From NCBI RefSeq assembly GCF_001598915.1, contig NZ_BDAP01000002.1, positions 248,001 through 312,000 of the forward strand: a stretch of DNA of 64,000 bases, written 5' to 3'. The notes under the pieces were generated by a model. That model was not told the origin of the DNA. It saw only the letters and a program-made list of their open reading frames with translations, and searched no databases. The DNA comes from Williamsia muralis NBRC 105860 (lineage in GTDB: Bacteria; Actinomycetota; Actinomycetes; Mycobacteriales; Mycobacteriaceae). The stretch's first letter is position 1, and the number at the start of each line of letters is the position of its first letter. Below, in pieces: positions 2,100 through 25,189 of the stretch. A program made the position numbers and the translations under genes.

Positions 2100-2227
2100 G
2101 GTGCTCCTCGAACGGGTCCCGGCTGCGGGACGGCGGATGGCGAGAGTGGTCGGTGCCTCGCTCTCGGAGACTGTGACCGTGCTCATAACGTACCCAAATA
2201 GTAGTGGAAGTCAAGAAAGAACGCCCA

Positions 2228-2244
2228 AACTATGTACAGACTTG
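2228..2244. promoter_or_regulatory. Candidate operator, catabolic regulon 1 (site 1)
   Basis: The sequence AACTATGTACAGACTTG, with a TGTACA core at 2233-2238, lies in the divergent promoter region between the hypothetical/PPDK-like operon and the aldehyde dehydrogenase. The identical 17 bases occur at 25173-25189 next to the FCD regulator gene. That binding is by that regulator is inference. Confidence 0.6.
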
Positions 2245-2345
2245 AAACCGAAGAGTTACTTGACACCGAATCCGCAAAGTAGTTTACGCTGGCTGTGATG
2301 GCCGCCACTCGGTGTTCATCGCACGACGAAGTGGAGGCGCCCCCA

Positions 2346-3779
2346 ATGGACGATCGCACCGAGCTCTATATCGACGGCACGTGGGTGCCGTCGGACGGTG
2401 GAGGCACGATCGACGTCTTCGAGGCGGCGACCGGCGGCCTGCTGGCCCGCGTCCCTGCAGGTACAGAAGCTGATGTCGACGCTGCGGTGGCAGCGGCGAA
2501 GAGGGCGTTCCCGTCGTGGTCACAATCGCCGGTGGCCGACCGCGTTGCGCTGCTCCGACGCTTCGCCGACGAACTCCTGCAGCGCGAGGACGAGTTGGCC
2601 GAGACGATGGCGCGAGAGGTCGGAACCCCCATCGCACGGTCACGGAGCGTGCAGGTGGGCCTGGGCGTGACGATCTTCCGAACGATGGCCGACGTCCTCG
2701 AGACACTTCCGATGGAAGAACGGCGCGGAACGTCGTTGATCCTCAAGGTTCCCGCAGGTGTGGTCGGTGCGATCACTCCGTGGAACTACCCCCTGTACCA
2801 ACTGGCGGCAAAAGTCGCCCCGGCGATCGCGGCAGGATGCACCACCGTGGTCAAGCCCAGCAGCGTTGCTCCGCTTGCTGCCTTTGTGGTCGCCGACATC
2901 GCCCACGCCATCGGATTGCCGCCCGGCGTCCTCAATGTGGTGTCGGGTTCTGGTGGCCGAGTCGGCGAACGGCTCGCCGGACACCCGGACGTCGATCTGG
3001 TGAGCCTCACCGGGTCGACATCCGCCGGAGCTCGAGTCGGCCAATTGGCTGCAGCCGGAATCAAGAAAGTGACTCTCGAGTTGGGAGGGAAATCGGCGTT
3101 CATCGTGGCCCCGGATGCGGACATGGACGCGGCGCTGAACGCCGCTGTTCGTAGCTGTTACGTCAACAACGGCCAGACCTGTACGGCCACCACCCGGTTG
3201 CTCGTCCCGGCCGACCGACTCGACGAGGTGGAGCGGCGACTGGTGGAGTTGGTCGGCTCTCAGACGATCGGCGACCCCCTCGACGAAACGGTCGATGTGG
3301 GACCGATGGCCTCGCAGGACCAGCAGCAGTCGGTGCTCAAACATCTCGCGGACGTGCCGGCGGATGCGAAGTTCCTGGTGGGCGGCCCCGGCGACGTGGA
3401 CGGGCTCGATGAACGGCTGCGGTCGGGCTACTTCGTGCGTCCGACCGTGGTCAGTCGCGTGGACAACAACACCCCCATCGCCAGGGACGAGGTGTTCGGC
3501 CCGGTGCTCGCCGTCCTCACCTATCGGGACATCGATGACGCCGTCGCGATCACCAACGATTCCGAGTACGGGTTGTCCGGTGCGGTGTTCGCGGCAGATG
3601 ACGACCAGGCCATCGCGATCGCCCGGCGCCTGCGCACAGGGCAGGTCTCGATCAACGGCGGGCGGTTCAACGCCATGGCCCCGTTCGGCGGCATGAAGAA
3701 ATCGGGCATCGGACGTGAACTCGGCCCCGATGGGCTCGACGAGTACTTCGAGAAGATCTCACTTCAGCTGCGTAGCTGA
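2346..3779 (+). CDS. NAD(P)-dependent aldehyde dehydrogenase
   Basis: A 477-residue member of the aldehyde dehydrogenase superfamily, oxidising an aldehyde to a carboxylate in the cytosol. The fold markers are in order: TPWNYPL in the Rossmann domain, KPSS, GSTSAG, the catalytic general base Glu245 in TLELGGKS, and the nucleophile Cys279 in NNGQTCTAT. The C-terminal PFGGMKKSG is also present. The ATG at 2346 is preferred because GGAGG sits eight bases upstream; a longer in-frame ATG (2295) has no such site. It is first in a short operon with the SnoaL-like gene. In the cluster it would turn an aldehyde from the alcohol dehydrogenases into the acid used by the CoA ligase. Substrate not known. 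Confidence 0.92.
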   Translation: MDDRTELYIDGTWVPSDGGGTIDVFEAATGGLLARVPAGTEADVDAAVAAAKRAFPSWSQSPVADRVALLRRFADELLQREDELAETMAREVGTPIARSRSVQVGLGVTIFRTMADVLETLPMEERRGTSLILKVPAGVVGAITPWNYPLYQLAAKVAPAIAAGCTTVVKPSSVAPLAAFVVADIAHAIGLPPGVLNVVSGSGGRVGERLAGHPDVDLVSLTGSTSAGARVGQLAAAGIKKVTLELGGKSAFIVAPDADMDAALNAAVRSCYVNNGQTCTATTRLLVPADRLDEVERRLVELVGSQTIGDPLDETVDVGPMASQDQQQSVLKHLADVPADAKFLVGGPGDVDGLDERLRSGYFVRPTVVSRVDNNTPIARDEVFGPVLAVLTYRDIDDAVAITNDSEYGLSGAVFAADDDQAIAIARRLRTGQVSINGGRFNAMAPFGGMKKSGIGRELGPDGLDEYFEKISLQLRS

Positions 3780-3839
3780 ACCCGCTCCCCGCACCGACCG
3801 ACCCTGCTGCCCTGAACACCTGTAGACAAGGAACCGACC

Positions 3840-4313
3840 ATGACCGAGACGGCACATGTGGAGATCACCCGCTTGATGGCAAGGTTCGCGCGGGGTATCG
3901 ACCTGCGGGACTGGGATCTGTACCGCTCTGTGTTCACCGATGAGATCGACATCGACTACACGAGCTATCGCGCCGGGAACGAAGGCCGCTTTCGCGCCGA
4001 GGACTGGGTGCAACGCGGACGAATGCTGTTCCCTGGTCTGGCCGCATCCCAGCACTTCCTGTCGAACCTCGACATCGACATCGACGGCGAGGAGGGCACC
4101 GTGACCTCCTACGTGCGGGCCGAGCACGTACTGCCCAACACCGCCGGAGACGCGATGTTCACGATCGGCGGCTATTACACCGACGGGGTGGTGCGGGTTG
4201 GCGGAGAGTGGAAGATCCGGAGCAAAAAGCTCACGGTGCTGTGGAACTCGGGAAATCCGCAAGTTCTCGCACTTGCCCGCGACCGGGCCGCCGAACTGCT
4301 GGCGGCCGCCTGA
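3840..4313 (+). CDS. SnoaL-like / NTF2-fold protein
   Basis: A 157-residue protein of the SnoaL-like family: a small cone-shaped fold used by isomerases, dehydratases, small ring hydroxylases and many uncharacterised catabolic proteins. Typical features are the N-terminal helix ITRLMARFARGIDLRDWDLY followed by FTDEID, and the late GGYYTDGVVR strand. The ribosome site AAGGA lies upstream of ATG 3840. It follows the aldehyde dehydrogenase by 60 bases and ends exactly where the convergent VOC gene ends. Its reaction cannot be read from sequence. Confidence 0.85.
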   Translation: MTETAHVEITRLMARFARGIDLRDWDLYRSVFTDEIDIDYTSYRAGNEGRFRAEDWVQRGRMLFPGLAASQHFLSNLDIDIDGEEGTVTSYVRAEHVLPNTAGDAMFTIGGYYTDGVVRVGGEWKIRSKKLTVLWNSGNPQVLALARDRAAELLAAA

Positions 4314-4850
4314 TCACATCTGGCGCACGGGGTCTGTGCCGTCCCAGTTCACGGCGGCATCGGCGACCGTCCGATACAGGCGCAAGATGGACGGCCTGGG
4401 TTCGTAGATCTCCACCAGGTGGCCCAGTTGCGGACGGGCATCGTGAAAGGCGAAGTCATTGCCGTTCGGGGTGGTCGCAGAAAGCAGTGCCGGCCACCCT
4501 GATTCGGCATACAGACGCTGTTGCTCGGCGAACGACTCCACCATGATCGCCACGTGATGCACTCCGTCCCGGATGGCGGTGGTGGCCGCGAACGCCGCGG
4601 GCTCTGCGGTGTGGGTCTGCACCAGTTCGATCTGCAATCGACCCCATTGGCCGTAGGCGGACGAGTGGTCGAAAGCGCCCGGCTCTCCATCGGGGCCCAG
4701 CGCGCCGGTGATGCGGTTGCGGCGAACGAAAAATGGCCCGGCGCCGAGTCGTGATGCGAATTCCTCGGCTGCGCCGGCGACATCGTCCACCATGTAGGCG
4801 ATTTGTACGACGGTGCCCAGTTCGACGGTGCCCAATTCGACATCGATCAC
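4314..4850 (-). CDS. VOC (glyoxalase/dioxygenase-fold) family protein
   Basis: A 178-residue vicinal-oxygen-chelate protein. Two βαβββ modules are discernible, starting near VVQIAYMVDDV and VHHVAIMVES. Candidate metal ligands are the His of VHHVAIM and the late Glu of HLVEIYE. The predicted GTG start at 4850 follows GAGGAG by eleven bases. The first codons include two near-identical 15-base repeats coding VELGT twice. VOC proteins may be epimerases, lyases or extradiol dioxygenases, so the reaction is open. It abuts the SnoaL-like gene tail to tail and diverges from the ABC operon, sharing its promoter region. Confidence 0.85.
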   Translation of the reverse strand: MIDVELGTVELGTVVQIAYMVDDVAGAAEEFASRLGAGPFFVRRNRITGALGPDGEPGAFDHSSAYGQWGRLQIELVQTHTAEPAAFAATTAIRDGVHHVAIMVESFAEQQRLYAESGWPALLSATTPNGNDFAFHDARPQLGHLVEIYEPRPSILRLYRTVADAAVNWDGTDPVRQM

Positions 4851-5015
4851 AGAAGTCCACTCTCCTCTACCACTCGGTAACTTCTATCTGACTGTAGATA
4901 CCTGTTGTCGCAACGGTGCCGGGTTGCCGACGGTGACGCGGGACAGCTGCCGCGGTGTGCATGAATCTCCCGGTCAGAGCGGAAAATAACAAATTCAGCA
5001 AACGCTGGACATATC

Positions 5016-5031
5016 CATGTACATACTTCAC
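5016..5031. promoter_or_regulatory. Candidate operator, catabolic regulon 1 (variant)
   Basis: CATGTACATACTTCAC matches the ATGTACA-G/T-ACTT core of the 2228 and 25173 sites. It lies about 60 bases before the ABC ATPase start, in the region shared with the divergent VOC gene. Confidence 0.45.
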
Positions 5032-5089
5032 TATGATCCAGGTAACACAAGTGATGTTCAAGTAACTCTCCTCACGTAGGTAGGCCAAC

Positions 5090-6610
5090 ATGACAGACGC
5101 GCTCAGCATCAGCGGCCTCTCGAAAACTTTCGGCGGCCAACGAGCCCTCGATGGTGTCGATCTCTCGCTCGCCCCCGGTGAAATCCGTGGACTGGTGGGG
5201 CAGAACGGGTGCGGTAAGTCGACACTGATCAAAGTTCTTGCTGGATACCACGATCCGGACCACGGTGCGAAGATCACCGTGGCGGGAGATGAGCTGAACC
5301 TCGGAGTCCCCGGTGGTGGGGAGGCCGCCGGGCTGCGCTTTGTCCACCAAGAACTGGGCCTCGTCGAGAGTCTGGATGTCGTCGACAACCTTGCGCTGGG
5401 CCACGGTTACAAGCGCACTGCGGTCGGCACCATCGACAACCGCGCAGAACGGGCCCAGGCCAAGGAAGCGCTCGCCGAACTCGGATTCGATCTGAACCTC
5501 AAGAAGCTCGCCGGTGCCCTCACCATGAGCGAGCGGACCATGCTGGCCGTCGCACGCGCGGTCCAGGGCCGCAGCGGCGACACCCACATTCTCGTGCTCG
5601 ACGAACCGACCGCCAATCTGCCTGCGGCCGAAGCGGTTCGCTTGTTCGAGCTGGTCCGCAAGATTCGGGACCGCGGGGTGGCCGTACTGTTCGTCTCGCA
5701 CCACCTCGGAGAGGTTTTCTCGCTGTGCGACAGCGTGACCGTGATGCGCGACGGCAGAGTTGTGACCACGCGACCCCTCGAGGGGCTCGATGAACCCGGT
5801 CTGGTGGAACTGATGATCGGCCGCCGAGTCGAGGAGTTCCTCGCCGAGCCCGAAGAGACAACACATGCCGGAGCGCCTGCGCTCGAGGTCGATGCGCTCA
5901 CCTGTGGTGCCGCACACGAGCTCAGCTTTGCGATCCATCCCGGAGAGGTCCTCGGGATCGCTGGGATCACCGGTTCAGGCCGCGAACACATCGTCCCGGC
6001 GCTGTTCGGCGGCGAGAGCCGCGCAGGCGTGGTGACGATCGACGGCAAGGTCATCGAGCAGGGCCGTCCCGATCTCGCGATGTCGGCGGGGATGGGTTGT
6101 GTTCCCGCAGAACGTCTCAGCAACGCCGCGTTCGCGACCGCATCGTTGCGCGAGAACGTGTCCGTGGCCGATCCGTGGGCGTACACCAGCGGTGGCTGGC
6201 TCCGTGCGGGACGTGAGAAGTCCGATGTGGCAACGTGGCTCGAACGTCTTGGGGTGCGTCCGACCGGTGACACCGAGCGGGCCCTCGGCACCCTCAGCGG
6301 CGGCAACCAGCAGAAGGTCATGCTGGCACGCTGGCTGCGCCGCAACCCGCGTGTACTCCTGCTCGACGAACCGACCCAAGGGGTCGACATCGGCGCCAAA
6401 GCCGACATCCATGCGCTGATCGACGACGCCGCGGAGAAGGGTGCCGCCGTCCTGGTGGTCTCCACCGACCACGGTGAGTTGACGAGGCTGTGCGACCGCG
6501 TGATCGTCCTGTCCGCCGGACGGGTCGTGGACGATCTGCGCCGGCCGCGCATCGACCCCGATCGACTGACCGCCTCCACTCTCAAGAAGCCCGTACTCGC
6601 CGAGTCCTGA
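5090..6610 (+). CDS. Sugar-type ABC importer, double ATPase (RbsA/MglA family)
   Basis: 506 residues with two fused ABC domains, the usual design of ribose/galactose-type importers. The first domain has Walker A GQNGCGKST (Lys43) and Walker B ILVLDEPTANL. Its signature is degenerate (LTMSERTM), as is common in RbsA. The second domain lacks a clear Walker A but has the signature LSGGNQQ near residue 402 and Walker B LLLDEPTQGVD. It energises import through the permease that follows. First gene of a transport operon with a candidate operator just upstream. The imported solute is unknown; family members take pentoses, hexoses, inositol, polyols and autoinducer-2. Confidence 0.95.
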   Translation: MTDALSISGLSKTFGGQRALDGVDLSLAPGEIRGLVGQNGCGKSTLIKVLAGYHDPDHGAKITVAGDELNLGVPGGGEAAGLRFVHQELGLVESLDVVDNLALGHGYKRTAVGTIDNRAERAQAKEALAELGFDLNLKKLAGALTMSERTMLAVARAVQGRSGDTHILVLDEPTANLPAAEAVRLFELVRKIRDRGVAVLFVSHHLGEVFSLCDSVTVMRDGRVVTTRPLEGLDEPGLVELMIGRRVEEFLAEPEETTHAGAPALEVDALTCGAAHELSFAIHPGEVLGIAGITGSGREHIVPALFGGESRAGVVTIDGKVIEQGRPDLAMSAGMGCVPAERLSNAAFATASLRENVSVADPWAYTSGGWLRAGREKSDVATWLERLGVRPTGDTERALGTLSGGNQQKVMLARWLRRNPRVLLLDEPTQGVDIGAKADIHALIDDAAEKGAAVLVVSTDHGELTRLCDRVIVLSAGRVVDDLRRPRIDPDRLTASTLKKPVLAES

Positions 6611-6715
6611 GCCCTCCGCGGCCGCCGTCTCGCGGCATCGCAGCGGACCCGATGCCCGATCCGCCGCAGCGACACCCCCTCTACCTCCGGGCACCACTTC
6701 GGTGAAAGGAACACC

Positions 6716-7738
6716 ATGACAACACAATCCCCTGAAGAGACGGCGACATCACCGAAGGGTCCACCGCCCACGGGCGGCCATCAGGCGGGGCGCGGCAGGC
6801 GCAAGATCAACCTGGGTCTCGACCGGTTCAGCGGAATCTATGTGTGGGTTGCCATCATCGTGCTGTTCGCGATCTGGATCCCCGACACGTTCATGACCGA
6901 GGGCAACTTCCGGATCATCGCCGGAGACCAGGCGATCACCGCGATGTTGGCGATCGGATTGATCGTTCCCCTGGCGGCGGGAGTCTTCGACCTCTCGATA
7001 GCCGGCGTGATGGGCTTCTCGGTGGCGATGGTCTCGTACCAGCTGTCCAAGGGGATCAGCGCACCGATCGCGATCATCACCACGTTGCTCTGTGGGGCCC
7101 TGATCGGTGCGGTCAACGGGTTCGTGGTGGTCAAACTGAACGTCGACTCCTTCATCGCGACCCTTGGTATGTCGAGCATCCTTCTGGCAGGCACATATTG
7201 GGTCACCGACGGAAAGCAGATCACCGAGGGGTTCACCGACGGCTTCCTCGATCTGGGCAGCAAGCCCTTCCTCGGACTGCCCCTTCCGTTCTTCTACATG
7301 ATCGCCGTCGCCGCAGTGATGTACGTGATCTTGGAAAAGACTCCTCTCGGCCGGTACCTGTACGCCACCGGTGGTAATCGCCAGGCGGCCAGGCTCGCCG
7401 GACTTCGGGTGGAACGGATCATGTTCGGCGCGTTGGTCACCTCGGCAACCGTCGCGGCCCTAACCGGCGTCATCCTGGCTGCCAAACTGGGGACCGCCGC
7501 GCCTGACATCGGACCCTCCTATTTGTTGCCGGCGTTCTCCGCGGTGTTCCTCGGTTCCACTCAGATCCGGGCCGGAAGAGTCAACGTGCTCGGCACGCTG
7601 ATCGCCATCTACCTCCTGGCGACGGGCGTCAAGGGGTTGCAGCTCGCAGGTGCGCCCAGCTACGTCAACGACCTCTTCAACGGTCTCGCCCTCATCGTCG
7701 CCGTCGCCCTGGCGGCCCGCACCGCCCGTCGCGCCTGA
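6716..7738 (+). CDS. Sugar-type ABC importer permease (RbsC family)
   Basis: 340 residues with about eight to ten hydrophobic segments after a hydrophilic, Pro/Gly-rich N-terminal tail of roughly 35 residues. The family marker GRYLYATGGNRQAARLAGL, a cytoplasmic coupling loop contacting the ATPase, is present at about residues 218-236. AAGGA lies before ATG 6716. It would form the homodimeric channel for the solute delivered by the downstream lipoprotein. It sits 105 bases after the ATPase gene and 62 before the binding-protein gene. Confidence 0.94.
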   Translation: MTTQSPEETATSPKGPPPTGGHQAGRGRRKINLGLDRFSGIYVWVAIIVLFAIWIPDTFMTEGNFRIIAGDQAITAMLAIGLIVPLAAGVFDLSIAGVMGFSVAMVSYQLSKGISAPIAIITTLLCGALIGAVNGFVVVKLNVDSFIATLGMSSILLAGTYWVTDGKQITEGFTDGFLDLGSKPFLGLPLPFFYMIAVAAVMYVILEKTPLGRYLYATGGNRQAARLAGLRVERIMFGALVTSATVAALTGVILAAKLGTAAPDIGPSYLLPAFSAVFLGSTQIRAGRVNVLGTLIAIYLLATGVKGLQLAGAPSYVNDLFNGLALIVAVALAARTARRA

Positions 7739-7800
7739 CGGCCCGGTCTCGAAACGTCTTCTCCACCCGGCCTATCGGCCACCCCTCGAAAGGAATCCAT

Positions 7801-8925
7801 GTGAAAACGACAACCTGGACAAAGGCGTTCGTTGCCGTTGTCTCCGCGAGTCTGTTCGCCACCGCGTGTAGCAGCAGCGACGACGGCGGCTCCAGCCAGC
7901 CGGCAGACATCGCCGCCGCGCAGGCCGTGACCGATCAGTACGAGGCCGCGCCGACCAACCTCGTGCTCGACACCCCGCTGAGCAAGGCCCCCGAAGCGGG
8001 TAAGTACGTCATCAGCATCGAGACCCCGCAACCGATCTCGAGTGCCAAGGACGACGCCATCCAGCAGGCTGCCGATCTGCTCGGCTGGCGGTACCAGCGG
8101 ATCATCATGGGAACCGACGCAGAGGCCGCACCCAAGGCGATGGATCAGGCCATTGCGCTGAAGCCGGATGCCATCCACTTCTCGGGCACCCCGGTGTCGA
8201 TGCTGAGCAAGCAGATCGAGTCCGCGAAGGCGGCCGGGATCACCGTGATCGCCGACAGTGTCGGTGACGAGCCGATCCCCGGCGTGATCTCCACATCCTT
8301 GGATGGAACTGCGCAGGTGCAGGAGTGGGGAAAGATGGTGGCCAGTCAGGTTGTCGTCGACAGTGAAGGCGACGCGAACGTCGCGGTCTTCACGATCACC
8401 GATTACCCGATCCTCAACGTCTTCACCGATGCCTTCACCGCGCAGATGAAGGCGCAGTGCCCGGGCTGCAAGGTCGAGATGGTCAATCAGCAGGTCACCG
8501 ACCTCGGTACCAAGACCCCTCAGAGCGTGGTGAGCACGCTGCAGCGAGACCCGAACATCAACTACGCGGTCTTCTCGTTCGGTGACCTCGTGCTCGGCGT
8601 GGACGCGGCACTGCGAGGTGCCGGCCTGCAAGACCAGGTGACCTTTGCCGGTCAGACCCCCACACCGGACAACCTGAAGTCGCTGGAAGACGGTGACAAC
8701 AGCGTGTGGGTCGGTTTCCCCGTGCAGATCCTCGGGTGGCGCGTGCTGGACATGCTGGCCCGCTCGTTCAACGGCGATGACCTGGGGCCCGCGGACGATG
8801 CATTCCTGCCGACCCAGCTCCTCAACAAGGACAACATCGGATCGGCGGTGATCGACGACAAGACCGGCTTCTATGTCGGAGTCGCCGACTACCAGGACCA
8901 GTTCAAGGCCCTCTGGAAGAAGTGA
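7801..8925 (+). CDS. Substrate-binding lipoprotein of the sugar-type ABC importer
   Basis: 374 residues, periplasmic-binding-protein type 1 (LacI-like) fold. The N-terminus is a lipoprotein signal: KR-poor but with a hydrophobic stretch and lipobox ATAC, so Cys23 should be lipidated and anchor the protein outside the membrane. A Ser/Asp/Gly-rich linker follows. The start is GTG 7801; an ATG overlapping it at 7799 is followed at once by a stop. AAGGA lies upstream. It determines the importer's specificity. A strong hairpin follows the gene, probably favouring high expression of this component. Confidence 0.93.
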   Translation: MKTTTWTKAFVAVVSASLFATACSSSDDGGSSQPADIAAAQAVTDQYEAAPTNLVLDTPLSKAPEAGKYVISIETPQPISSAKDDAIQQAADLLGWRYQRIIMGTDAEAAPKAMDQAIALKPDAIHFSGTPVSMLSKQIESAKAAGITVIADSVGDEPIPGVISTSLDGTAQVQEWGKMVASQVVVDSEGDANVAVFTITDYPILNVFTDAFTAQMKAQCPGCKVEMVNQQVTDLGTKTPQSVVSTLQRDPNINYAVFSFGDLVLGVDAALRGAGLQDQVTFAGQTPTPDNLKSLEDGDNSVWVGFPVQILGWRVLDMLARSFNGDDLGPADDAFLPTQLLNKDNIGSAVIDDKTGFYVGVADYQDQFKALWKK

Positions 8926-8940
8926 TCTCTGTGTAGGTGA

Positions 8941-8979
8941 GGAACTGCCCGGGGCGAGCACGATGCCCCGGGCACTTCC
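8941..8979 (+). terminator. Intra-operon hairpin after the binding-protein gene
   Basis: A perfect 10-base-pair stem (TGCCCGGGGC at 8946-8955 with 8965-8974) and 9-base loop, extended by GGAA/TTCC around a C·C mismatch. No T-run follows. It lies between the lipoprotein and isomerase genes and may terminate partially or stabilise upstream mRNA. Confidence 0.6.
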
Positions 8980-9017
8980 GCGCCATCGGTGAGACGCCCC
9001 GAATGATCGGAACCAGT

Positions 9018-9866
9018 ATGGAACAGCCTCCACAGCAACGAATCCTGTCGTTGTCACACCTCTCGGCGATTCAGGTGCCGCCGCCCCAGTTCATCGAGAA
9101 CGCCGCGGCGGCGGGATTCAACGCAGTCGGACTCCGGGTGGCACAGACACCACGAGACCGCGGGTTCCAGTTGCTGGAGGGTTCGGCACTCCTCCGCGAC
9201 ACCAGGCAGGCGTTGCACGACAACGGAATGCGCGTCCTCGACGCCGAGGTGATCAAACTGCACCCGGGTAGCTCGCGCGAGGACTGGATGCATGTGCTCG
9301 AGGCCGGACAGGCTTTGTCGGCGTCGTATCTGCTCGTGACCGTTCTCGACGACGACTACCAGCGGGCCACCACGCTGTTCGGTGAACTCGCGGCTGCCGC
9401 AGCCGATCATGGTCTGCGGTGCTGTCTCGAACCGATGATCTTCAGTGCCGTCCGCGACATGGATGCCGCGGCTCGGTTCCTGGCCGACGCGGGTGACGGC
9501 GGCTCGGGCATCCTGCTCGACGCGTTGCACGTTGCGCGGGCCGGCACGCCGATCGACGACATCGCAAGGCAGTCGCCCGACCTGTTTCCGTATTGCCAGT
9601 TGTGCGACGCACTTTCGGCCGAACCGGCCACCGATGAGAACGCAGCGATCACCGAAGCGCGCCAGCATCGGCTGGCGCCCGGTCAGGGTGTGCTGCCATT
9701 GGCCGATCTGGTCCGCGCATTGCCGCCGACGGCCGCGATCAGTGTCGAGGCGCCGTCTGACCGCGGCACCGCCGATCCCCGTGGGTGGGCGGCCGAGCTG
9801 GGTGCCGCTGCTCGTGAGCTCTTCGAGTACCTGGATCTCGACCGAACGGCAGCTGCGGGTCACTGA
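9018..9866 (+). CDS. Sugar phosphate isomerase/epimerase-like TIM-barrel protein
   Basis: About 282 residues of the xylose-isomerase-like TIM-barrel family (AP-endonuclease-2 fold). Visible markers include the barrel-start SLSHLSAIQ, the acidic DAEVIKL strand, CLEPMIFS, LLDALHVARAG and the terminal VEAPSDR strand, which supply the usual Glu/Asp/His metal ligands. The start is uncertain: ATG 9018 and ATG 9003 are in frame and neither has a strong ribosome site; a GTG at 8937 would overlap the hairpin. Known relatives isomerise or epimerise sugars, inositols and their keto derivatives, consistent with the importer upstream. Confidence 0.82.
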   Translation: MEQPPQQRILSLSHLSAIQVPPPQFIENAAAAGFNAVGLRVAQTPRDRGFQLLEGSALLRDTRQALHDNGMRVLDAEVIKLHPGSSREDWMHVLEAGQALSASYLLVTVLDDDYQRATTLFGELAAAAADHGLRCCLEPMIFSAVRDMDAAARFLADAGDGGSGILLDALHVARAGTPIDDIARQSPDLFPYCQLCDALSAEPATDENAAITEARQHRLAPGQGVLPLADLVRALPPTAAISVEAPSDRGTADPRGWAAELGAAARELFEYLDLDRTAAAGH

Positions 9867-9960
9867 CCCCAACAGACTGCGGACCGTTCAGGCCACAGAC
9901 CAACAAGCCCATCGGCCCATCTGGACGACAAAGACACACAACAGGACGAAAGTGGAAGTC

Positions 9961-11987: not shown

Positions 11988-12029
11988 CCATGTGACCTCA
12001 TCAAGCCTGCGGGGGCCCAGCCGATCCGT

Positions 12030-16608: not shown

Positions 16609-16678
16609 CGAGTCCTCCTGAAGGCGGCTGACGGACTGTATTTCAAGTCACACTATAGAAACATCGCCCAAATAGAAA

Positions 16679-16691
16679 CATGTACAGAGAT
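16679..16691. promoter_or_regulatory. Candidate operator, catabolic regulon 1 (weak variant)
   Basis: CATGTACAGAGAT, with a TGTACA core at 16681-16686, lies in the divergent promoter region between the PEP-utilising enzyme and pyruvate carboxylase. It shares ATGTACAGA with the sites at 2228 and 25173. A preceding CGCCCAAATAG resembles CGCCCAAACTA before the 2228 site. Confidence 0.4.
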
Positions 16692-16870
16692 ATTGCGCAG
16701 CAAGTTGAGCAACATTCTCCACCGCCTGCCGATTCTGACTAACTTGACTGTCCATCTAGTAAGTGAGGGTAAAACATGAGAGACTCAGCTCACATACCTC
16801 GCCCCACCGTGCCTGCCCGTGCGGTGTGATTCGCCGTTCCCGGCATCGTCCCGACAAGAGAGGAACGCCC

Positions 16871-19800
16871 ATGTTCACAAAGGTCCTGGCCGCCAACCGT
16901 GGCGAGATCGCGGTCCGCGCATTTCGTGCCGCCGTTGAACTGGGTGCGTCCACGGTTGCCGTCTACCCGTACGAAGACCGCAACTCGGCCCATCGCGCCA
17001 AAGGGTTCGAGGCGTATCAGATCGGTGAACCAGGCCATCCTGTTCGCGCCTACCTCTCTGTCGACGAGATCATCTCGGCCGCACAACGTGCTGGTGCCGA
17101 CGCGATCTACCCCGGATACGGGTTCCTCTCCGAGAACCCGGACCTGGCCGCTGCCTGTGCAGCTGCGGGGATCACCTTCGTCGGCCCGTCAGCGGACATA
17201 CTCCGGCTGACCGGAGACAAGTCGCACGCGGTTGCCGCCGCCCGAGCCGCCGGGCTGCCGGTGCTGGCCTCCTGTGCGCCATCCGATGATGTCGACGAGC
17301 TGGTCGCCGCAGCGGAGGGAATGCGCTTCCCTGTGTTCGTCAAGGCGGTTGCCGGCGGCGGCGGCCGAGGAATGCGACGTGTCGCCGACCCGGAGTCACT
17401 CCGGTCTTCCATCGAGGCTGCATCGAGAGAGGCGCACACGGCGTTCGGTGACGGCACCGTCTTCCTCGAACAGGCGGTGGTCAACCCCCGGCACATCGAG
17501 GTCCAGATCCTGGGTGACAGCAGCGGCGAGGTCATCCACCTCTTCGAGCGGGACTGCTCGTTGCAGCGGCGACACCAGAAGGTTGTCGAGGTGGCTCCCG
17601 CGCCAGGACTCGATCCCGAACTGCGCGAACGTATCTGCGCCGATGCGGTGAAGTTCGCTCGGCACATCGGATACACCTGTGCAGGTACCGTGGAGTTCCT
17701 CCTGGACCCGTACGGCAATCACGTCTTCATCGAGATGAACCCGCGGATCCAGGTGGAGCACACCGTCACCGAGGAGATCACCGACGTCGATCTGGTTGCG
17801 GCGCAACTGCGTATCGCATCGGGCGAGTTGCTGACCGACCTTGGCCTGACGCAGGAGTCCATCGAGATCCGCGGCGCCGCCATGCAGTGCCGCATCACCA
17901 CCGAGGACCCCACCGACGGGTTCCGCCCCGACACCGGCCGGGTCACGGCCTATCGCACACCTGGCGGCTCCGGCGTCCGATTGGACGGCAGTGTCGGACT
18001 CGGGTCGGAGATCGGTTCGCATTTCGACTCGATGCTGGTCAAACTCACCTGCCGAGGACGCGACTTCGCCACCGCAGCGGCCCGCGCCCGGCGAGCGATC
18101 GCCGAGTTCCGTGTGCGTGGCGTGGCGACCAACATCCCTTTCCTGCAGGCAGTCCTGGACAATCCCGACTTCCTGGCCTGGAGGGTCGACACGTCCTTCA
18201 TCGAGAATCACCCGGAACTGTTGACCCAGAACGTCTCCGCGGACCGGGGCACCCGCATCCTGCGCTACCTCGCAGACATCACCGTCAACCGGCCACACGG
18301 CGAGCGTCCGTCCACCGTCTATGCCGTCGACAAGCTGCCGGCGGTGGACGTCGGCAACCCACCTCCGGCCGGGTCGCGGGATCGGCTGCTCCGCCTTGGA
18401 CCGACGGTGTTCGCGGCAGACCTCCGTCGCTCGACAGCTCTGGCCGTCACCGACACCACATTCCGGGATGCCCATCAGTCCCTATTGGCAACGCGCGTAC
18501 GAACCCGTGATCTCGTCGCCGTTGCGCCCTATGTTGCCCGGATGACCCCGCAGCTGCTGTCTGTGGAGGCGTGGGGAGGGGCGACATATGATGTGGCGCT
18601 GCGCTTTCTGCACGAGGACCCGTGGGAGCGACTGTCCGCGCTACGTGAGGCAATGCCGAACATCTGCATCCAGATGCTGCTGCGAGGCCGGAACACGGTG
18701 GGATACACGCCGTACCCCGACGAGGTGACCCATGCGTTCGTTCGCGAGGCGGTAGACACGGGTGTCGACATCTTCAGGATTTTCGATGCGCTCAACAATG
18801 TCGACCAGATGCGCCCGGCGATCGATGCGGTTCGCGACACGGGCACATCCGTTGCCGAAGTGGCGATGTCGTACACCGGCGATCTGACCGATCCAGATGA
18901 GGATCTGTACACGCTCGACTACTACTTGCGACTCGCCGAACAACTGGTGGAGGCCGGCGCACACATTCTCGCGATAAAAGACATGGCCGGTCTGCTGCGT
19001 CCCCCGGCCGCAGCCACCCTTGTCACAGCACTGCGTTCACGTTTTGATCTACCGGTTCATCTCCACACCCATGACACCCCGGGCGGTCAGTTGGCCACGT
19101 ACCTCGCGGCCTGGGACGCAGGGGTCGACGCCGTCGACGGTGCCAGCGCCGCGCTGGCCGGCACCACCAGTCAGCCCGCGCTGTCGGCGATCGTGGCCGC
19201 GACCGAGCACACACCACGTGACACCGGGCTCGATCTCAGCGCCGTGTGCGACCTCGAACCGTATTGGGCCGCAATCCGTTCGAACTATGCGCCATTTGAG
19301 TCAGGACTCCCCGCACCCACCGGCCGCGTGTACACCCACGAGATCCCGGGCGGGCAGCTGTCCAACTTGCGCCAGCAGGCCTCGGCGCTCGGCCTGGCCG
19401 ATCGGTTCGAGGACATCGAGTCGGCCTATGCCGGCGCCGACCGGATTCTGGGCCGATTGGTCAAGGTGACCCCGTCGTCGAAGGTGGTCGGCGACCTCGC
19501 GTTGGCGCTTGTCGGCGCCGATGCGACAGCCGACGACTTCGCAGCCGAACCGTCCTCTTACGACATCCCGTCGTCGGTCATCGACTTCCTCCGCGGCGAC
19601 CTCGGCGACCCCGCCGGTGGTTGGCCCGAGCCACTGCGGTCTCGGGCGCTGGCCGGTCGGGCCGAGCCAAGAGCGGTCACACCCCTCACGGAACAACAGC
19701 TGTCGGGCCTGTCGGGACCGAGCGAGGTCAAGCGGGAAACGTTGAACCGGCTGCTGTTCCCCGGCCCGACAACGGAGTTCGAGAACCACCGCGACAAGTT

Positions 19801-20254
19801 CGGAGACACCGCGCAGTTGTCGACCAATCAATACTTCTACGGCCTGCGGCAAGGCGAGGAGCATCGGGTGCAACTCGAACCCGGCGTGGAGTTGCTGATC
19901 GGTTTGGAAGCCATCTCCGAACCCGACGCCCAGGGCATGCGCAACGTGCTGTGCATACTCAACGGTCAGCTCCGGCCGGTGCAGGTACGTGACCGCAGCG
20001 TCGAGACCACCACTCGTGAAGCCGAAAAGGCCGATCGCACCGACCCGGGGCAGGTACCGGCGCCCTTCACCGGTGTGGTCACGTTGTCGGTCAAAGAGGG
20101 CGACGCCATCGAGCAGGGTGAATTGGTGGGAAGCATCGAGGCGATGAAGATGGAGGCCGCGATCACCGCACCCCGCTCAGGCACCGTCAGCCGTGTGCCC
20201 ATCAGTGGTGCAGCACAGGTCGATGGTGGCGACCTGCTTCTGGTTATTGCCTGA
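16871..20254 (+). CDS. pyc: Pyruvate carboxylase
   Basis: 1127 residues, the full length of single-chain pyruvate carboxylase: pyruvate + bicarbonate + ATP to oxaloacetate. Order: biotin carboxylase (VLAANRGEIAVR, ATP-grasp GGGGRGMR, EMNPRIQVEH), carboxyltransferase barrel (TDTTFRDAHQSLLATR, LRGRNTVGY), tetramerisation region, and biotinyl domain with EAMKMEA, biotin on Lys1093. The start at 16871 has GAGAGGA upstream; the longer GTG reading adds a non-family tail. Its promoter region is shared with the divergent PEP-utilising gene and holds a regulon-1 operator-like site. This is anaplerotic housekeeping, or a dedicated supply of oxaloacetate/PEP for the pathway. Confidence 0.97.
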   Translation: MFTKVLAANRGEIAVRAFRAAVELGASTVAVYPYEDRNSAHRAKGFEAYQIGEPGHPVRAYLSVDEIISAAQRAGADAIYPGYGFLSENPDLAAACAAAGITFVGPSADILRLTGDKSHAVAAARAAGLPVLASCAPSDDVDELVAAAEGMRFPVFVKAVAGGGGRGMRRVADPESLRSSIEAASREAHTAFGDGTVFLEQAVVNPRHIEVQILGDSSGEVIHLFERDCSLQRRHQKVVEVAPAPGLDPELRERICADAVKFARHIGYTCAGTVEFLLDPYGNHVFIEMNPRIQVEHTVTEEITDVDLVAAQLRIASGELLTDLGLTQESIEIRGAAMQCRITTEDPTDGFRPDTGRVTAYRTPGGSGVRLDGSVGLGSEIGSHFDSMLVKLTCRGRDFATAAARARRAIAEFRVRGVATNIPFLQAVLDNPDFLAWRVDTSFIENHPELLTQNVSADRGTRILRYLADITVNRPHGERPSTVYAVDKLPAVDVGNPPPAGSRDRLLRLGPTVFAADLRRSTALAVTDTTFRDAHQSLLATRVRTRDLVAVAPYVARMTPQLLSVEAWGGATYDVALRFLHEDPWERLSALREAMPNICIQMLLRGRNTVGYTPYPDEVTHAFVREAVDTGVDIFRIFDALNNVDQMRPAIDAVRDTGTSVAEVAMSYTGDLTDPDEDLYTLDYYLRLAEQLVEAGAHILAIKDMAGLLRPPAAATLVTALRSRFDLPVHLHTHDTPGGQLATYLAAWDAGVDAVDGASAALAGTTSQPALSAIVAATEHTPRDTGLDLSAVCDLEPYWAAIRSNYAPFESGLPAPTGRVYTHEIPGGQLSNLRQQASALGLADRFEDIESAYAGADRILGRLVKVTPSSKVVGDLALALVGADATADDFAAEPSSYDIPSSVIDFLRGDLGDPAGGWPEPLRSRALAGRAEPRAVTPLTEQQLSGLSGPSEVKRETLNRLLFPGPTTEFENHRDKFGDTAQLSTNQYFYGLRQGEEHRVQLEPGVELLIGLEAISEPDAQGMRNVLCILNGQLRPVQVRDRSVETTTREAEKADRTDPGQVPAPFTGVVTLSVKEGDAIEQGELVGSIEAMKMEAAITAPRSGTVSRVPISGAAQVDGGDLLLVIA

Positions 20255-20259
20255 CCCGC

Positions 20260-20315
20260 GGGCCAGATCCTCCGGTTACGGCCACATCCTCCGGTTACAA
20301 CCGGAGGATGTGGCC
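20260..20315. repeat. Repeat/hairpin between convergent genes, probable bidirectional terminator
   Basis: GGCCA-G/C-ATCCTCCGGTTAC occurs twice in tandem. The second copy forms a perfect 17-base inverted repeat with 20299-20315 (AACCGGAGGATGTGGCC). It lies between the 3' ends of pyc and the acyl-CoA dehydrogenase. The same TCCTCCGGTT and CGGAGGATGTG blocks recur at 40486-40511. Confidence 0.7.
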
Positions 20316-20344
20316 GATGTCGGAGGGGATGTGTAGCCGACGAC

Positions 20345-21400
20345 TCAGGACACCAGCGCGGCGGCAACTGTCTCGGCGTGCACGGCGGTGTTGCCGAACA
20401 ACAATTCGCTCGTCTTGGCCCGGCGGAAGTACCTGTGCAACGGGTGCTCCCATGTGAAGCCGATGCCGCCGTGGATCTGCACGGACTCCTCGGCCGAGAA
20501 GGTCGCGGCTCGGGAGGCGAGTACCCGCGCGGTCGCAGCAGCGACGAACAGCTCGCGGCTACTGCGGGAATCGGCGTCGGCGGCATCGAGTACAGCTGCC
20601 TCGGCCAGTTCGATCGCCACCAGCATGTCGGTGAGTCGATGTTTGATCGACTGAAAAGACCCGATGGCACGTCCGAACTGTTGCCGGGTCTTGGCGTAAT
20701 CGACAGACATCTCCAGGCAGGCGCGTGCAGCCCCCACCTGCTCAGCGGCGAGCGCGGTGATGGCGATGGCCTGCGCCCTGTCGAGACCCGCTACGAGGTG
20801 GTTGCCGCCGACGCGCTGCGCTGATGCCCCGGTGAACTCGATCCGCGCAAGTGGCCTGGTGAAGTCGAGTGATTCACGCGCGGTGCGTGTTACGCCGGCG
20901 GCGTCACCGCCGATGACCGCCAACTCCGGACCCGAGGGTCCCTCGGCGACGACGACGAGCAGATCAGCATCGGCTCCGGCGACCACGGCCTCCTGCCCGC
21001 CGTCGAGAACGATTGTGTTGTCGTCACCTCCGGACGCGGTGATCGACGTGGACGCAAACGGGTATCCGGTCACGAGTGCGGCGGTCACGCTGCCATCCGC
21101 GATCGTCGGAAGATGTTGTGTCTTCGCGGCATCCGAACCTGCGTGCAGCAGTGTGAAACCTGCCAGGATGACCGAGGAGAAGCACGGAGCGGCGCCGAGT
21201 GACCGGCCCAGTTCGGCCATCACCACAGCGGTGTCCTTCAGGGTGAACCCTGCTCCGCCGTAATTCTCCGGGAACGGGACCTCGGTCAGGCCCATCTCCA
21301 GCAGCGAGCCCCAGACGTTGTCGCCGGCTGCGGTGCGGGCCAGCGAGGACCTGAGACTTGATTCGAGATCGCGCTGTTCGACCGTCAATTCGAGAGGCAT
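20345..21400 (-). CDS. Acyl-CoA dehydrogenase (small subunit-type)
   Basis: 351 residues from ATG 21400, with AGGAG upstream. A longer in-frame reading runs into the neighbouring gene and adds Ser/Arg-rich filler. Features: GGAGFTLKD near residue 50, the DYAKTRQQFGRAIGSFQSIKH helix, and a C-terminal IHGGIGFTWEHPLHRYFRRA motif of the family. The FAD domain looks reduced, as in the heteromeric FadE pairs of steroid-degrading actinobacteria. It directly follows a second dehydrogenase, and such adjacent pairs often form α2β2 enzymes. Oxidises an acyl-CoA to the enoyl-CoA. Confidence 0.9.
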   Translation of the reverse strand: MPLELTVEQRDLESSLRSSLARTAAGDNVWGSLLEMGLTEVPFPENYGGAGFTLKDTAVVMAELGRSLGAAPCFSSVILAGFTLLHAGSDAAKTQHLPTIADGSVTAALVTGYPFASTSITASGGDDNTIVLDGGQEAVVAGADADLLVVVAEGPSGPELAVIGGDAAGVTRTARESLDFTRPLARIEFTGASAQRVGGNHLVAGLDRAQAIAITALAAEQVGAARACLEMSVDYAKTRQQFGRAIGSFQSIKHRLTDMLVAIELAEAAVLDAADADSRSSRELFVAAATARVLASRAATFSAEESVQIHGGIGFTWEHPLHRYFRRAKTSELLFGNTAVHAETVAAALVS

Positions 21401-21410
21401 TGCCGATCTC

Positions 21411-22646
21411 CTAACGTGGTTCGCGGGGCAGTCCGAGCCCGCGTTCGCCGATGATGTTTCGCTGGATCTCGTCAGAGCCGCCCGCAATGCGATAGCCGGG
21501 TGCGCCCAGGAGGTGTTCGGTCCAGGCGAATGTGTTCGGCTCTCCGGTGTCGGCGAGGATCTTCGGGCCGAGGAACGAAGCGGCGGCGTCGCCGATCCGC
21601 TTGAGGTTCTGGGTCCAGACGAGTTTGCCGATCGAACCCTCCACTCCCGGAACGGCTCCGGATTGCTCACGTTCGGCGTAACGAGCCACCATCAGTGCCG
21701 AGGCGCGCTCGTAGATCGCAGCGTCTGCCAATTGCTGGCGTACCAGGGGATCGTCGGTGATGCCCAGACTCTTTGCCAGCCGCACCAGATCGGCGCTGTT
21801 ACCGCCGGCGCTGACGATACCCGCGCTCGAATTGCGTTCGAAGCCGAGCGTGGTGAGCGCGACCTTCCAACCGTCACCTTCGGCACCGATGCGCAGCGAG
21901 TCAGGGATTTCGACGTCGGTGAGGAAGACCTCGTTGAAGGTCGATCCACCGGAGCTCTGCCGAATGGGTCGTACATCGACCCCGGGCGCGTCCATCGGAA
22001 CCATGAACGCCGTCATGCCACGGTGTTTGGCCACGGTGGTGTCGGTGCGGGCGATGAGCAGGCCCCACTCGGAGAACTGTGCACCCGAGCTCCACACCTT
22101 CTGCCCGTTGATGCGCCAACCATCGCCGGTGGCCACAGCTTTGGTGGACAGCCCGGCCAGATCGGAACCGGCGCCGGGCTCGGAGAAGAGCTGGCAGCAC
22201 AGTTCGTCGGTGCGAAGGAATGGCCGGACGAATCGCTGTTGTTGATCCTCGGTGCCCAGCGCATGAAGCGTGGGTGCCACCAATTCGACAGTGACGAGCA
22301 CGGTTTCGTGACGGTCCGGCGTGATGTACTGCCGCTCGAGGCCGACGTACACGCGTTCGTGGCTGGCAGTCAGTCCTGCGCCACCCCATTCCGGACCCCA
22401 GGTGATGGCGCCGAACCCGGCATCGACCCTTTTCCGTTGCCAGTCCCGGGCGGCGTCGATCAGGTCGCGTTCCTCGTCGTGGGTGTGGTTGTGGAAAATT
22501 GCGTAGTTCGGGTCTGCGGCCACCGCCGGCCCCGTCTCCCGCCGGTCGAGGTGCTCGTCGAGCCACGCAACGCACTTTTCGGAGAAGGCGTCGACGTCGA
22601 TCACCTGCGCGTCGACGGATCCACTTGATCCCGGGCTCGGGGTCAT
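21411..22646 (-). CDS. Acyl-CoA dehydrogenase (FAD-binding partner)
   Basis: 411 residues from ATG 22646, preceded by AAGGAAAG; it overlaps the enoyl-CoA hydratase stop (ATGA). Typical signatures are LFSEPGAGSDLAGL and NGQKVWSSGAQFSEWGLL for FAD and substrate binding, and GGSDEIQRNIIGERGLGLPR at the C-terminus. Its downstream neighbour is a smaller, diverged dehydrogenase, so a heterotetramer is plausible. Acts at the first oxidation of β-oxidation on an acyl-CoA made by the ligase of the same operon. Confidence 0.93.
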   Translation of the reverse strand: MTPSPGSSGSVDAQVIDVDAFSEKCVAWLDEHLDRRETGPAVAADPNYAIFHNHTHDEERDLIDAARDWQRKRVDAGFGAITWGPEWGGAGLTASHERVYVGLERQYITPDRHETVLVTVELVAPTLHALGTEDQQQRFVRPFLRTDELCCQLFSEPGAGSDLAGLSTKAVATGDGWRINGQKVWSSGAQFSEWGLLIARTDTTVAKHRGMTAFMVPMDAPGVDVRPIRQSSGGSTFNEVFLTDVEIPDSLRIGAEGDGWKVALTTLGFERNSSAGIVSAGGNSADLVRLAKSLGITDDPLVRQQLADAAIYERASALMVARYAEREQSGAVPGVEGSIGKLVWTQNLKRIGDAAASFLGPKILADTGEPNTFAWTEHLLGAPGYRIAGGSDEIQRNIIGERGLGLPREPR

Positions 22647-23425
22647 GGCTTCTTTCCTTTCGACATCTCGGCGATACGGGCCTCGACTGCCTTCTTGGAG
22701 TCGGGGTGCTCGGACAGTCGCACGGTGAAGGTCTGTTCGAGTTCGTACCCGCGTTTGAGATCGACGTCTTCGCACCCGTTCAGCGACTGCTTTGCCAGGG
22801 TCAGCGCGTATCGGCTCTTGGCGGCGATGACGCGCGCCCGCGACATCGCGACCTCGAGGAGCTCGTCATGCGGTACCACGTCGAGGGGCGCACCCCAGCT
22901 GCGCAAGGTCTCCGCATCGACGGGCTCCGCGGTGAAGAACATCCGTCGCATCGCCTGCTGCGGAAGCATTCTGGCGGTGAACCGGCCTCCTCCGAGCACG
23001 CCGACACCCATCTCCGGAAGGCCGAACGTCGCCCGGTCGGAGGCAACCACGATGTCGCTGAGCGAAGCCAACGCAAGACCACTGCCGAGAGCGGGACCGT
23101 TGATGGCAGCGACAACGGGTAACGCGCAGTCGTACAGCCCGAACAGTGCCCGTCTCACGCTGCGCATCTCGACGTCGCCGCTGACCGAATCCATCACCCG
23201 GAAGTTGCCGAGATCATTGCCCGCGCAGAAGATCCTGCCGCGGCCGGTGAGGACGATGGCGCGGATGTCCTGGTTGTCGGACAACATGTCGAAGACTCGT
23301 GCGATCTCGTCGTACATCTGGGTGTCGATCGCGTTCACCTTGCCGCGGGCAAGTTCGACGAGTGCGATACCCGGTTCCGGCTCGGTGACGACGAGATGTT
23401 CGATCCCAGGTGTCTGAACGGTCAT
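22643..23425 (-). CDS. Enoyl-CoA hydratase/isomerase family protein
   Basis: 260 residues of the crotonase fold. The oxyanion-hole segments are AGNDLGNF and INGPALGSGLALA, then DIVVASDRATFGLPEMGVGVLGG with a Glu in the expected active-site region. One of the two canonical Glu positions is not obvious, so hydratase is likely but an isomerase or hydrolase is possible. It lies eight bases after the CoA ligase and overlaps the dehydrogenase downstream: one β-oxidation operon. Confidence 0.9.
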   Translation of the reverse strand: MTVQTPGIEHLVVTEPEPGIALVELARGKVNAIDTQMYDEIARVFDMLSDNQDIRAIVLTGRGRIFCAGNDLGNFRVMDSVSGDVEMRSVRRALFGLYDCALPVVAAINGPALGSGLALASLSDIVVASDRATFGLPEMGVGVLGGGRFTARMLPQQAMRRMFFTAEPVDAETLRSWGAPLDVVPHDELLEVAMSRARVIAAKSRYALTLAKQSLNGCEDVDLKRGYELEQTFTVRLSEHPDSKKAVEARIAEMSKGKKP

Positions 23426-23432
23426 TCGGCCC

Positions 23433-25112
23433 CTATTTCTCGTGTGTTGCGGCGAATTTCATCGCCGTCATCTGGGGTGGGAGCGCATCCCGATCGCGGG
23501 TCCAGTCGCGCAGCGCAAACTTCTGCACCTTGCCGCTGGCCGTCTTCGGCAGCGAATCGACCACGAAGACGCTCTCCGGGATCTTCTGCACCGCGATCTC
23601 TCGTTCGAGAAGAAAGCGGTGCACCTCGGGCAGTGTGAGATCGCGCTGATCCCGGGTCACCACAAACGCACACCCGCGTTCACCGGTCCGGGCATCAGGC
23701 CCGGCGACAACGGCCACCTCGACAACAGCCGGATGCTCGCTGAGTTGGTTCTCGACGTCGTGTGCGCTGATCTTCTCGCCCGAACGATTGATGACATCTT
23801 TGATACGTCCGACGATGTGGATGCCGCCGCTGCTGTCGAAGCGACCCAGGTCACCGGTACGGAAGAAACCGTCGTCGGTGAAGGCGGTCTCGTTCAGGCG
23901 CTCATCGAGGTATCCGAGAAAGGTGTCCGGCCCGCGCCAGAGGATTTCGCCCACCGCCCCTGTGGCAACGGACGTGCCGACGTCGTCGGCGACGATCACC
24001 TCCGTGGGTGAGATCGGCCGACCATCGGTCTTGGTGCGCAGATAGATGGGGTCCCATCGGTCGGACGCCGTGACAGACGGGCCCTCGGTGGCGCCGTACA
24101 TTCTCGTGACCGTACCCAGCCGCTCGGTTGCGGCGGCGGTCAGCGAGTCGGGGATATCGGCTCCGCCACAAGCGATGTAGCGGATGGAAGGGGTGTCGAG
24201 CTCCGCCGCGGTGGCTGCGTCGAGCAGGCCCCGGAGGAAGGGCGTCGAGAAGATCATGAAGCTGGCGTGCTCGGACCGGATGAGATCCAAGGCGGCCTCG
24301 GAGTCCCAGATATCCTGCAGCACAACCGTTGTGCCGAGTAGGAACGGCAGCGTCAGCGCGCAGTTCACCCCGGTCACATGGGTGACCGGTGATGGGTTGA
24401 AGATGACGTCGCGCTCGTTCAATCCGAACCAGGTGATCATCGACCGGTTCTCGTAGACGAGGGTGTTGTGGCTGTGCAGAACGCCTTTGGGGTCAGCGGT
24501 GGTACCAGAGGTGTACAGCAACAGGCAGATACTGTCAGGGTCGGCCGGCGGTAGATTACGTACTGCCGAAATGGCTTGCGGGGTGGCCGACCTCGTCAAT
24601 TCGTCCAACGTGGTGCCGACTGCCGCGTTGACGGGGTTTTCTTCGATGGAGACGACAAGCTGCAGGTCGGGAAGGTCGGTCACCAGGTCCCGGTACATTG
24701 CCCCGAAATCGAAACCACGGTGCGTTCCGGGGATGAGCACCACCTTTGCGCGAGCCTGCCCGAGGATGAATCGGAGTTCCCGGGCTCGGTAGATGGGAAC
24801 GATCGGGTTGGCGATGGCGCCGAGCTTCATGACGGCCTGAAACGCGATGACCGCTTCGGCGCAATTGGGCAGCTGGAACGCCACGACGTCGCCGGATCGC
24901 ACACCGCGACCTCGCAGTGCTGCCGCGAGCCGTGCCGACGCGTCGTCGAGTTCACCGAAGGTGATGCGACGCGCACCGTCGATCACCGCAACAGCGTCTG
25001 GGTATCGAGCGGAGGCTTGCTCGAGGAAGTGGGCGACGGGCTGATCGCGCCAGTGCCCGGCATTCCTATAGCTCTGCGTCAGAGCAGCATTCGGTGGCCG
25101 TGTGGGATACAT
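23433..25112 (-). CDS. AMP-dependent acid–CoA ligase
   Basis: 559 residues of the adenylate-forming superfamily. P-loop-like LLLYTSGTTADPKGVLHSH, the A5 motif MYGATEG, the A7 motif FFRTGDLGRFD, the hinge GRIKDVINRSGEKI, and the A10 lysine in PKTASGKVQKF are all visible. It activates a carboxylic acid as acyl-adenylate and then CoA thioester. Overall layout resembles cyclohexanecarboxylate–CoA ligases and EntE-like ligases. ATG 25112 is preferred over GTG 25118 because GAGGAGG is properly spaced only from it. First gene of the β-oxidation operon, divergent from the FCD regulator, with the operator between. Confidence 0.92.
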   Translation of the reverse strand: MYPTRPPNAALTQSYRNAGHWRDQPVAHFLEQASARYPDAVAVIDGARRITFGELDDASARLAAALRGRGVRSGDVVAFQLPNCAEAVIAFQAVMKLGAIANPIVPIYRARELRFILGQARAKVVLIPGTHRGFDFGAMYRDLVTDLPDLQLVVSIEENPVNAAVGTTLDELTRSATPQAISAVRNLPPADPDSICLLLYTSGTTADPKGVLHSHNTLVYENRSMITWFGLNERDVIFNPSPVTHVTGVNCALTLPFLLGTTVVLQDIWDSEAALDLIRSEHASFMIFSTPFLRGLLDAATAAELDTPSIRYIACGGADIPDSLTAAATERLGTVTRMYGATEGPSVTASDRWDPIYLRTKTDGRPISPTEVIVADDVGTSVATGAVGEILWRGPDTFLGYLDERLNETAFTDDGFFRTGDLGRFDSSGGIHIVGRIKDVINRSGEKISAHDVENQLSEHPAVVEVAVVAGPDARTGERGCAFVVTRDQRDLTLPEVHRFLLEREIAVQKIPESVFVVDSLPKTASGKVQKFALRDWTRDRDALPPQMTAMKFAATHEK

Positions 25113-25172
25113 GACCACCTCCTCGCCCCCGTGAGTACTTTTCTGACACGGACTACAGTATCTAATCCCGCT

Positions 25173-25189
25173 AACTATGTACAGACTTG
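25173..25189. promoter_or_regulatory. Candidate operator, catabolic regulon 1 (site at regulator)
   Basis: AACTATGTACAGACTTG, identical over 17 bases to 2228-2244. It lies between the CoA ligase operon and the FCD/GntR regulator gene, the classic place for an autoregulated operator. Confidence 0.65.

Follow-up and report, generated by a model that had tools for sequence, protein, structure and literature searches.

Within a 64-kb window of Williamsia muralis NBRC 105860 (contig NZ_BDAP01000002.1, positions 248,001 to 312,000; unless marked otherwise, coordinates are those of this whole stretch), we examined a 16-bp palindrome that occurs at four places in a cluster of catabolic genes, and we consider with good confidence that this element is the operator of the FCD/GntR-family regulator encoded at 25258-26001, serving six catabolic units and the regulator's own gene. 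The original prediction had placed these units (the PPDK-like operon, aldehyde dehydrogenase, importer, phosphoenolpyruvate (PEP)-utilising operon, pyruvate carboxylase and coenzyme A (CoA)-ligase operon) in a single regulon under this regulator, and it is supported by conservation footprints and by co-occurrence of the motif with the FCD/GntR gene; binding by GntR we infer. A regulon of all six units is supported above all because relocated genes keep their operator. Overall, the sequence comparisons strongly suggest that the pathway as a whole is under a single local regulator, and the system is well supported as an ordinary kind of regulon with an atypical operator. In the proposed mechanism, a dimer would bind the palindrome at the four places and so govern both its own gene and six transcription units that belong to one catabolic pathway, most likely as an autoregulated repressor that is released by a pathway intermediate; our guess is that the effector is the pathway acid or its CoA thioester.

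The operator in the window, the genome and the genus

The element was first noticed as a 17-base repeat, of which identical copies were found at 2228-2244 and 25173-25189 (shuffle mean in the window, 0.00), with no third match within 3 mismatches in the 64-kb window. A search of the whole 5.54-Mb genome returned two exact copies, both of them the cluster sites, and a single further match within 3 mismatches (C1:1070628). Bases 1-16 form an imperfect palindrome, AACTATGT|ACAGACTT, which a repeat finder also called as an inverted repeat with overlapping arms, and the unit is here corrected from 17 bases to a 16-bp dyad. The ATGTACA relatives noted near 5016 and 16679 are present (5017-5023 and 16680-16686) and form part of weaker versions of the dyad, with the pattern AANTNTGTACANANTT. 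As a criterion, ATGTACA alone was dropped as too common in favor of the 16-bp palindrome: the 7-mer has 6 strand-wise matches at 5 places in the window against 2.0 expected, a number reached by 1 of 100 shuffles, and one of the places (54969) falls outside the cluster.

When up to 2 mismatches were allowed, AANTNTGTACANANTT matched only four places in the window, namely 2228 and 25173 (0 mismatches) and 5013 and 16676 (2 mismatches each), and 16 places in the genome, where the only two exact matches are both in the cluster. The random scatter over the genome that was to count against a regulon was thus seen neither in the exact search nor in that with up to 2 mismatches. The presence of four of the 16 places within 26 kb corresponds to a Poisson tail of 1.2e-6, although the pattern was derived from the same sites and this is hence no independent test. 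Among the 12 places outside the cluster, 11 were examined (all except C14:11583), and 9 of these are overlapped by an open reading frame (ORF) of at least 100 aa, which is weak evidence at this G+C; L078 and L079 are free of such overlap. All four cluster sites had been described as lying in divergent promoter regions; the site at 5013 does lie between the minus-strand ORF 4349-4843 and the importer, but it is near the importer only. A hand-compiled set of 29 distinct sites gives the half-site consensus AAMYMTGT and the centre GT|AC, so that the spacing between GT and AC is 0 nt; T, G and T at half-site positions 6-8 are found in 58, 56 and 55 of the 58 half-sites.

The four sites were aligned across the 9 genomes of the genus, the window's own included. 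The gene order of the cluster is the same in all 8 other genomes, except that at the cut used no counterpart of ORF 4349-4843 was detected in 5 of the 8 and that some carry extra intergenic sequence. Invariant columns number 14, 15, 16 and 15 of 16 for operators 1-4, with the central eight invariant throughout, compared with 44-58% of the other gap-free columns of the four intergenic alignments. Further promoter blocks are also strongly conserved, and the operator is therefore not the sole constrained element. Two long blocks (2179-2218 and 16633-16662) are nearly unchanged across genera and may be additional control sites or leaders. A second shared element, GTTACTTGA / TCAAGTAAC, was seen at 2255-2263 and 5058-5066, in the regions ahead of the aldehyde dehydrogenase and importer genes; similar words also precede the pyruvate carboxylase. 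This candidate was set aside as weak, as the shared-word count observed in the window's own genome was reached by 24 of 500 simple shuffles for 9-mers and 46 of 500 for 8-mers.

Distribution of the operator and its movement with relocated genes

Orthologues of the regulator (E<=1e-60) were found in 29 of the 401 family genomes searched, in five genera. A contig search for relatives returned Williamsia (5), Gordonia (2), Dietzia (1) and Rhodococcus (1), plus one weak Clostridia match; one further relative is in a record titled Kitasatospora arboriphila NRRL B-24581, a title that looks wrong, the genome (G005) grouping in the window's genus. The 20 genomes outside the genus were read as 40-kb regions, shorter at contig ends (G268, G117 and G169) and 20 kb for G217. 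Sites accompany the linked PPDK/aldehyde dehydrogenase pair (operator 1; within 1 mismatch, 16/16 genomes), the linked ABC importer (operator 2; within 2 mismatches, 13/13), the linked PEP-utilising gene (operator 3; within 2-3 mismatches, 18/18) and the linked CoA ligase (operator 4; within 2 mismatches, 23/23). Directly upstream of the regulator gene, a site within 2 mismatches is present in 24 of the 29 genomes, and for the GntR transcription unit as a whole the count is 28 of 29, including four units headed by a transporter gene. Of the 29 regulator-positive genomes, 23 have the exact palindrome, compared with 15 of the 372 that lack the regulator (Fisher p 4e-22, uncorrected for kinship), while a reversed-pattern control matched in 9 of 401. 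Orthologues of the CoA ligase (E<=1e-180) are present in 27 of the 401 genomes, and all 27 are GntR-positive. Within 1 mismatch, 51 places were found in the 18 (of 29) GntR-positive genomes searched, of which 44 are at cluster or transporter promoters.

In several genomes the operator has stayed with cluster genes that lie apart from the regulator. In the Gordonia-type genomes G201, G130, G351 and G367, a distance of about 21-32 kb separates the CoA ligase from the regulator, and all four have TAATATGTACATATTT at 67-73 bp upstream of the ligase match. For G043 and G268, the contig with the upper cluster is not the one with the regulator, and each genome has retained three sites, before the PPDK/aldehyde dehydrogenase pair, the importer and the PEP-utilising/pyruvate carboxylase pair. 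Contig C49 of G130 carries an importer (ATPase 73% and permease 84% identical) that has a site 59 bp upstream. In G180 and G190, an exact palindrome that is not on the regulator's contig precedes a major facilitator superfamily (MFS) transporter, whose orthologues in other genera adjoin the regulator or the CoA ligase. Within 2 mismatches, a site accompanies all 16 of 16 such orthologues (73-100% identical), half of these sites (8/16) being the shared site of the CoA-ligase divergon and the other 8 the transporter's own, whereas none of the 14 scanned among 16 paralogues (47-62%) has one. At E<=1e-120, none of the 9 genomes in the genus of the window gave a match to the transporter; in other genera the putative regulon also takes it in. 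Two Gordonia-type genomes carry an identical near-operator, AAGCCTGTACAGAGTT (L215 4913-4928 and L216 4893-4908), with a paralogous MFS transporter about 2.8 kb away.

The presumed binder and the direction of control

The regulator has both a GntR winged helix-turn-helix (HTH) and an FCD domain above the Pfam cut-off, which places it in the FadR (FCD) subfamily of the GntR family. If GntR is the binder, its operator has the palindromic, A/T-rich form with GT/AC boxes of that subfamily, and it lies inside the regulator's divergon, also a subfamily trait (24 of 29 genomes directly, four by way of the transporter, none in G293). The recognition-helix residues R52, T53 and R56 are invariant in 11 aligned orthologues, as is K42, whose aligned counterpart in NanR is an arginine. 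Metal-binding histidines are common, though not universal, in FCD domains. Here, glutamine aligns with two histidines of solved FCD relatives, 14 of 16 alignment rows having Gln and 2 having His at the first position, and all 29 aligned sequences having Gln at the second. This makes a metal-independent effector plausible and lies behind our guess that the pathway acid or its CoA thioester releases the regulator.

We conclude that this GntR protein is very probably the binder, and several observations weigh against our interpretation. The genomes are related, so that the counts above are not independent. Five of the 29 GntR genes (G293, G011, G117, G139 and G169) have no site directly upstream; in the last four a same-strand transporter gene ahead of the regulator has one, but the G293 regulator is without any site, which is unexplained. 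Seven of the 51 near-exact places are unassigned, and no cluster gene was found in the stretches around the 3 that were read. The same palindrome precedes a TetR-type gene in genus g30, so that GntR proteins are not the only ones to go with this motif; g30 supplies 10 of the 15 regulator-negative genomes with the exact palindrome, and in the three loci read (L139, L143 and L145, near 1501) it stands ahead of a TetR-like gene, the one tested against Pfam giving a match. On the other side of the palindrome these loci have a long, similar ORF. The main internal objection is the gap between GT and AC, which is 0 nt here: FadR-subfamily operators usually have GT and AC 3 nt apart, or 2 nt in some groups, with exceptions such as NanR and BioR (PMC4494728).

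These points bear on the possibility that the element does serve as the operator of a regulon, but for a different transcription factor whose gene lies elsewhere, the GntR gene being just one of the targets. The adjacent GT and AC and the TetR-type gene of g30 both favor it, and a genome with the CoA ligase but without GntR, sought in order to split binder from bystander, was not found among the 401 genomes at the thresholds used, which leaves the two inseparable on this count. We nevertheless regard this possibility as quite unlikely, since the motif follows the GntR gene across the 401 genomes, a site precedes the GntR transcription unit in nearly all GntR-positive genomes, and the regulator is the only regulator-family match among the 20 ORFs scanned between 1473 and 26001. 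At E<=1e-15, the 29 GntR-positive genomes gave no match to the g30 TetR itself, while its own genome, G103, did match; it appears from this comparison that a different regulator may use the motif in other organisms, but that the g30 TetR is not the one here. As for the repeats being a chance or common spacer word without function, the mild enrichment of the ATGTACA 7-mer in the window would agree with it; set against the footprints, the genome-wide rarity of the palindrome and the operators retained by relocated genes, such an origin is extremely improbable, and in our view the relocation cases have already refuted it.

The direction of control was judged from promoter geometry. A consensus promoter scan of the four operator regions found no promoter (the same scan gave a terminator-like match at 25122-25135), which again counts against our interpretation in that the geometry had to be judged by eye. 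Read in this way, operator 4 overlaps a likely -35 element in the promoter of the CoA ligase, and operator 2 falls in the spacer that separates a likely -35 from a likely -10 in front of the importer. These positions over likely core promoter elements favor repression, a step that is weak with promoters read by eye, and we conclude that GntR probably represses when its inducer is absent. GntR could also bind these sites and yet activate, at least from operator 1, which is centred some 56-61 bp ahead of each of the two likely starts, a usual activator position, and which lies upstream of both likely -35 elements, disfavoring repression; operator 3, which abuts a poor -35, fits activation as well. 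Given the placement of operators 2 and 4, we consider activation unlikely.

Cluster genes, wider meaning and related systems

The operators and the genes of the cluster are listed in Table 1. Apart from the regulator, none of the 20 ORFs scanned matched a regulator family, and two were without any match; the short first gene of the PPDK-like operon has no match in Pfam, and the PEP-utilising protein has no ATP-grasp match there. The genome encodes two full-length pyruvate carboxylases, the other copy being outside the cluster at G000:C6:214684.

Table 1. Positions of the operators and cluster genes in the 64-kb window
Feature	Position	Strand	Remarks
Operator 1, AACTATGTACAGACTT	2228..2243	.	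Between PPDK-like operon (-) and aldehyde dehydrogenase (+)
Operator 2, ATCCATGTACATACTT	5013..5028	.	Centre ~69 bp upstream of the importer's first gene
Operator 3, AAACATGTACAGAGAT	16676..16691	.	Between PEP-utilising operon (-) and pyruvate carboxylase (+)
Operator 4, AACTATGTACAGACTT	25173..25188	.	Between CoA ligase (-) and GntR/FCD gene (+)
FCD/GntR-family regulator, presumed binder	25258..26001	+	Pfam FCD 5.9e-20, GntR 4e-15 (ORF from 25237)
PPDK-like operon	1..2186	-	Short first gene (ORF 1473-2186, start probably 2099); PPDK-like gene running off the window
Aldehyde dehydrogenase and SnoaL-like protein	2295..4313	+	Aldehyde dehydrogenase start probably 2346
ORF 4349-4843	4349..4843	-	No Pfam match
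ABC importer (ATPase, permease, binding protein), TIM-barrel protein, F420-type luciferase-like oxidoreductase, alcohol dehydrogenase	5090..11987	+	
SDR, zinc alcohol dehydrogenase, F420-type luciferase-like oxidoreductase	12030..15058	-	Presumed one operon with the PEP-utilising gene
PEP-utilising protein	14869..16608	-	Rph/RedH-like in middle and C-terminal parts; mobile His domain
Pyruvate carboxylase ORF	16763..20254	+	Start probably downstream of 16763
Two acyl-CoA dehydrogenase ORFs	20345..22775 (20345-21670, 21411-22775)	-	Resemble IpdE2/PimD and PimC, all below cut-offs
Enoyl-CoA hydratase/isomerase	22643..23425	-	
Acyl-CoA ligase ORF	23433..25118	-	Best NCBIfam match cyclohexanecarboxylate-CoA ligase, below its cut-off

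A regulon map is thereby provided for the pathway in Williamsia-, Gordonia-, Dietzia- and Rhodococcus-type bacteria. The operator can serve as a tag for scattered parts of the pathway and has already picked out the alternative transporter and the relocated importers, and it makes testable the use by FCD/GntR dimers of half-sites without a spacer. It is possible, although doubtful, that the regulator represents a class of FCD/GntR proteins reading a compressed operator with adjacent GT and AC, and that it governs an undescribed pathway in which the PPDK-like and PEP-utilising proteins (one without an ATP-grasp match) would modify the substrate at the cost of PEP and the second pyruvate carboxylase, dedicated to this task, would return the pyruvate.

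Among the papers listed in open-access literature searches, none was seen to describe this regulon or a GTAC-centred FCD operator, which does not establish their absence. The core operon has the same enzyme types as the CoA pathways for alicyclic and side-chain acids (PimC/PimD, IpdE2, cyclohexanecarboxylate-CoA ligase), but the cluster enzymes score below the curated cut-offs, and the upper part of the cluster additionally encodes PEP-utilising proteins together with a second copy of pyruvate carboxylase. With the FadR-subfamily regulators GlcC, LldR, PdhR, DgoR, ExuR and FadR (PMC4494728), the system shares a GntR HTH with an FCD domain, a palindromic A/T-rich operator and a single site inside the regulator's divergon; it differs from them in that GT and AC touch and in a regulon of CoA-ligase, PPDK-like and F420-type genes. 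For Atu1419, a VanR-type FCD regulator of Agrobacterium fabrum, PMC7797058 describes a short palindrome over promoter elements, as here, and a recognition-helix arginine that reads a guanine of the palindrome. Its palindrome, ATGTATACAT, has a centre 2 nt longer than the one described here, and its zinc ligands are Asn137, His141, His192 and His214, whereas in the present regulator glutamines stand opposite two histidines of solved FCD relatives.

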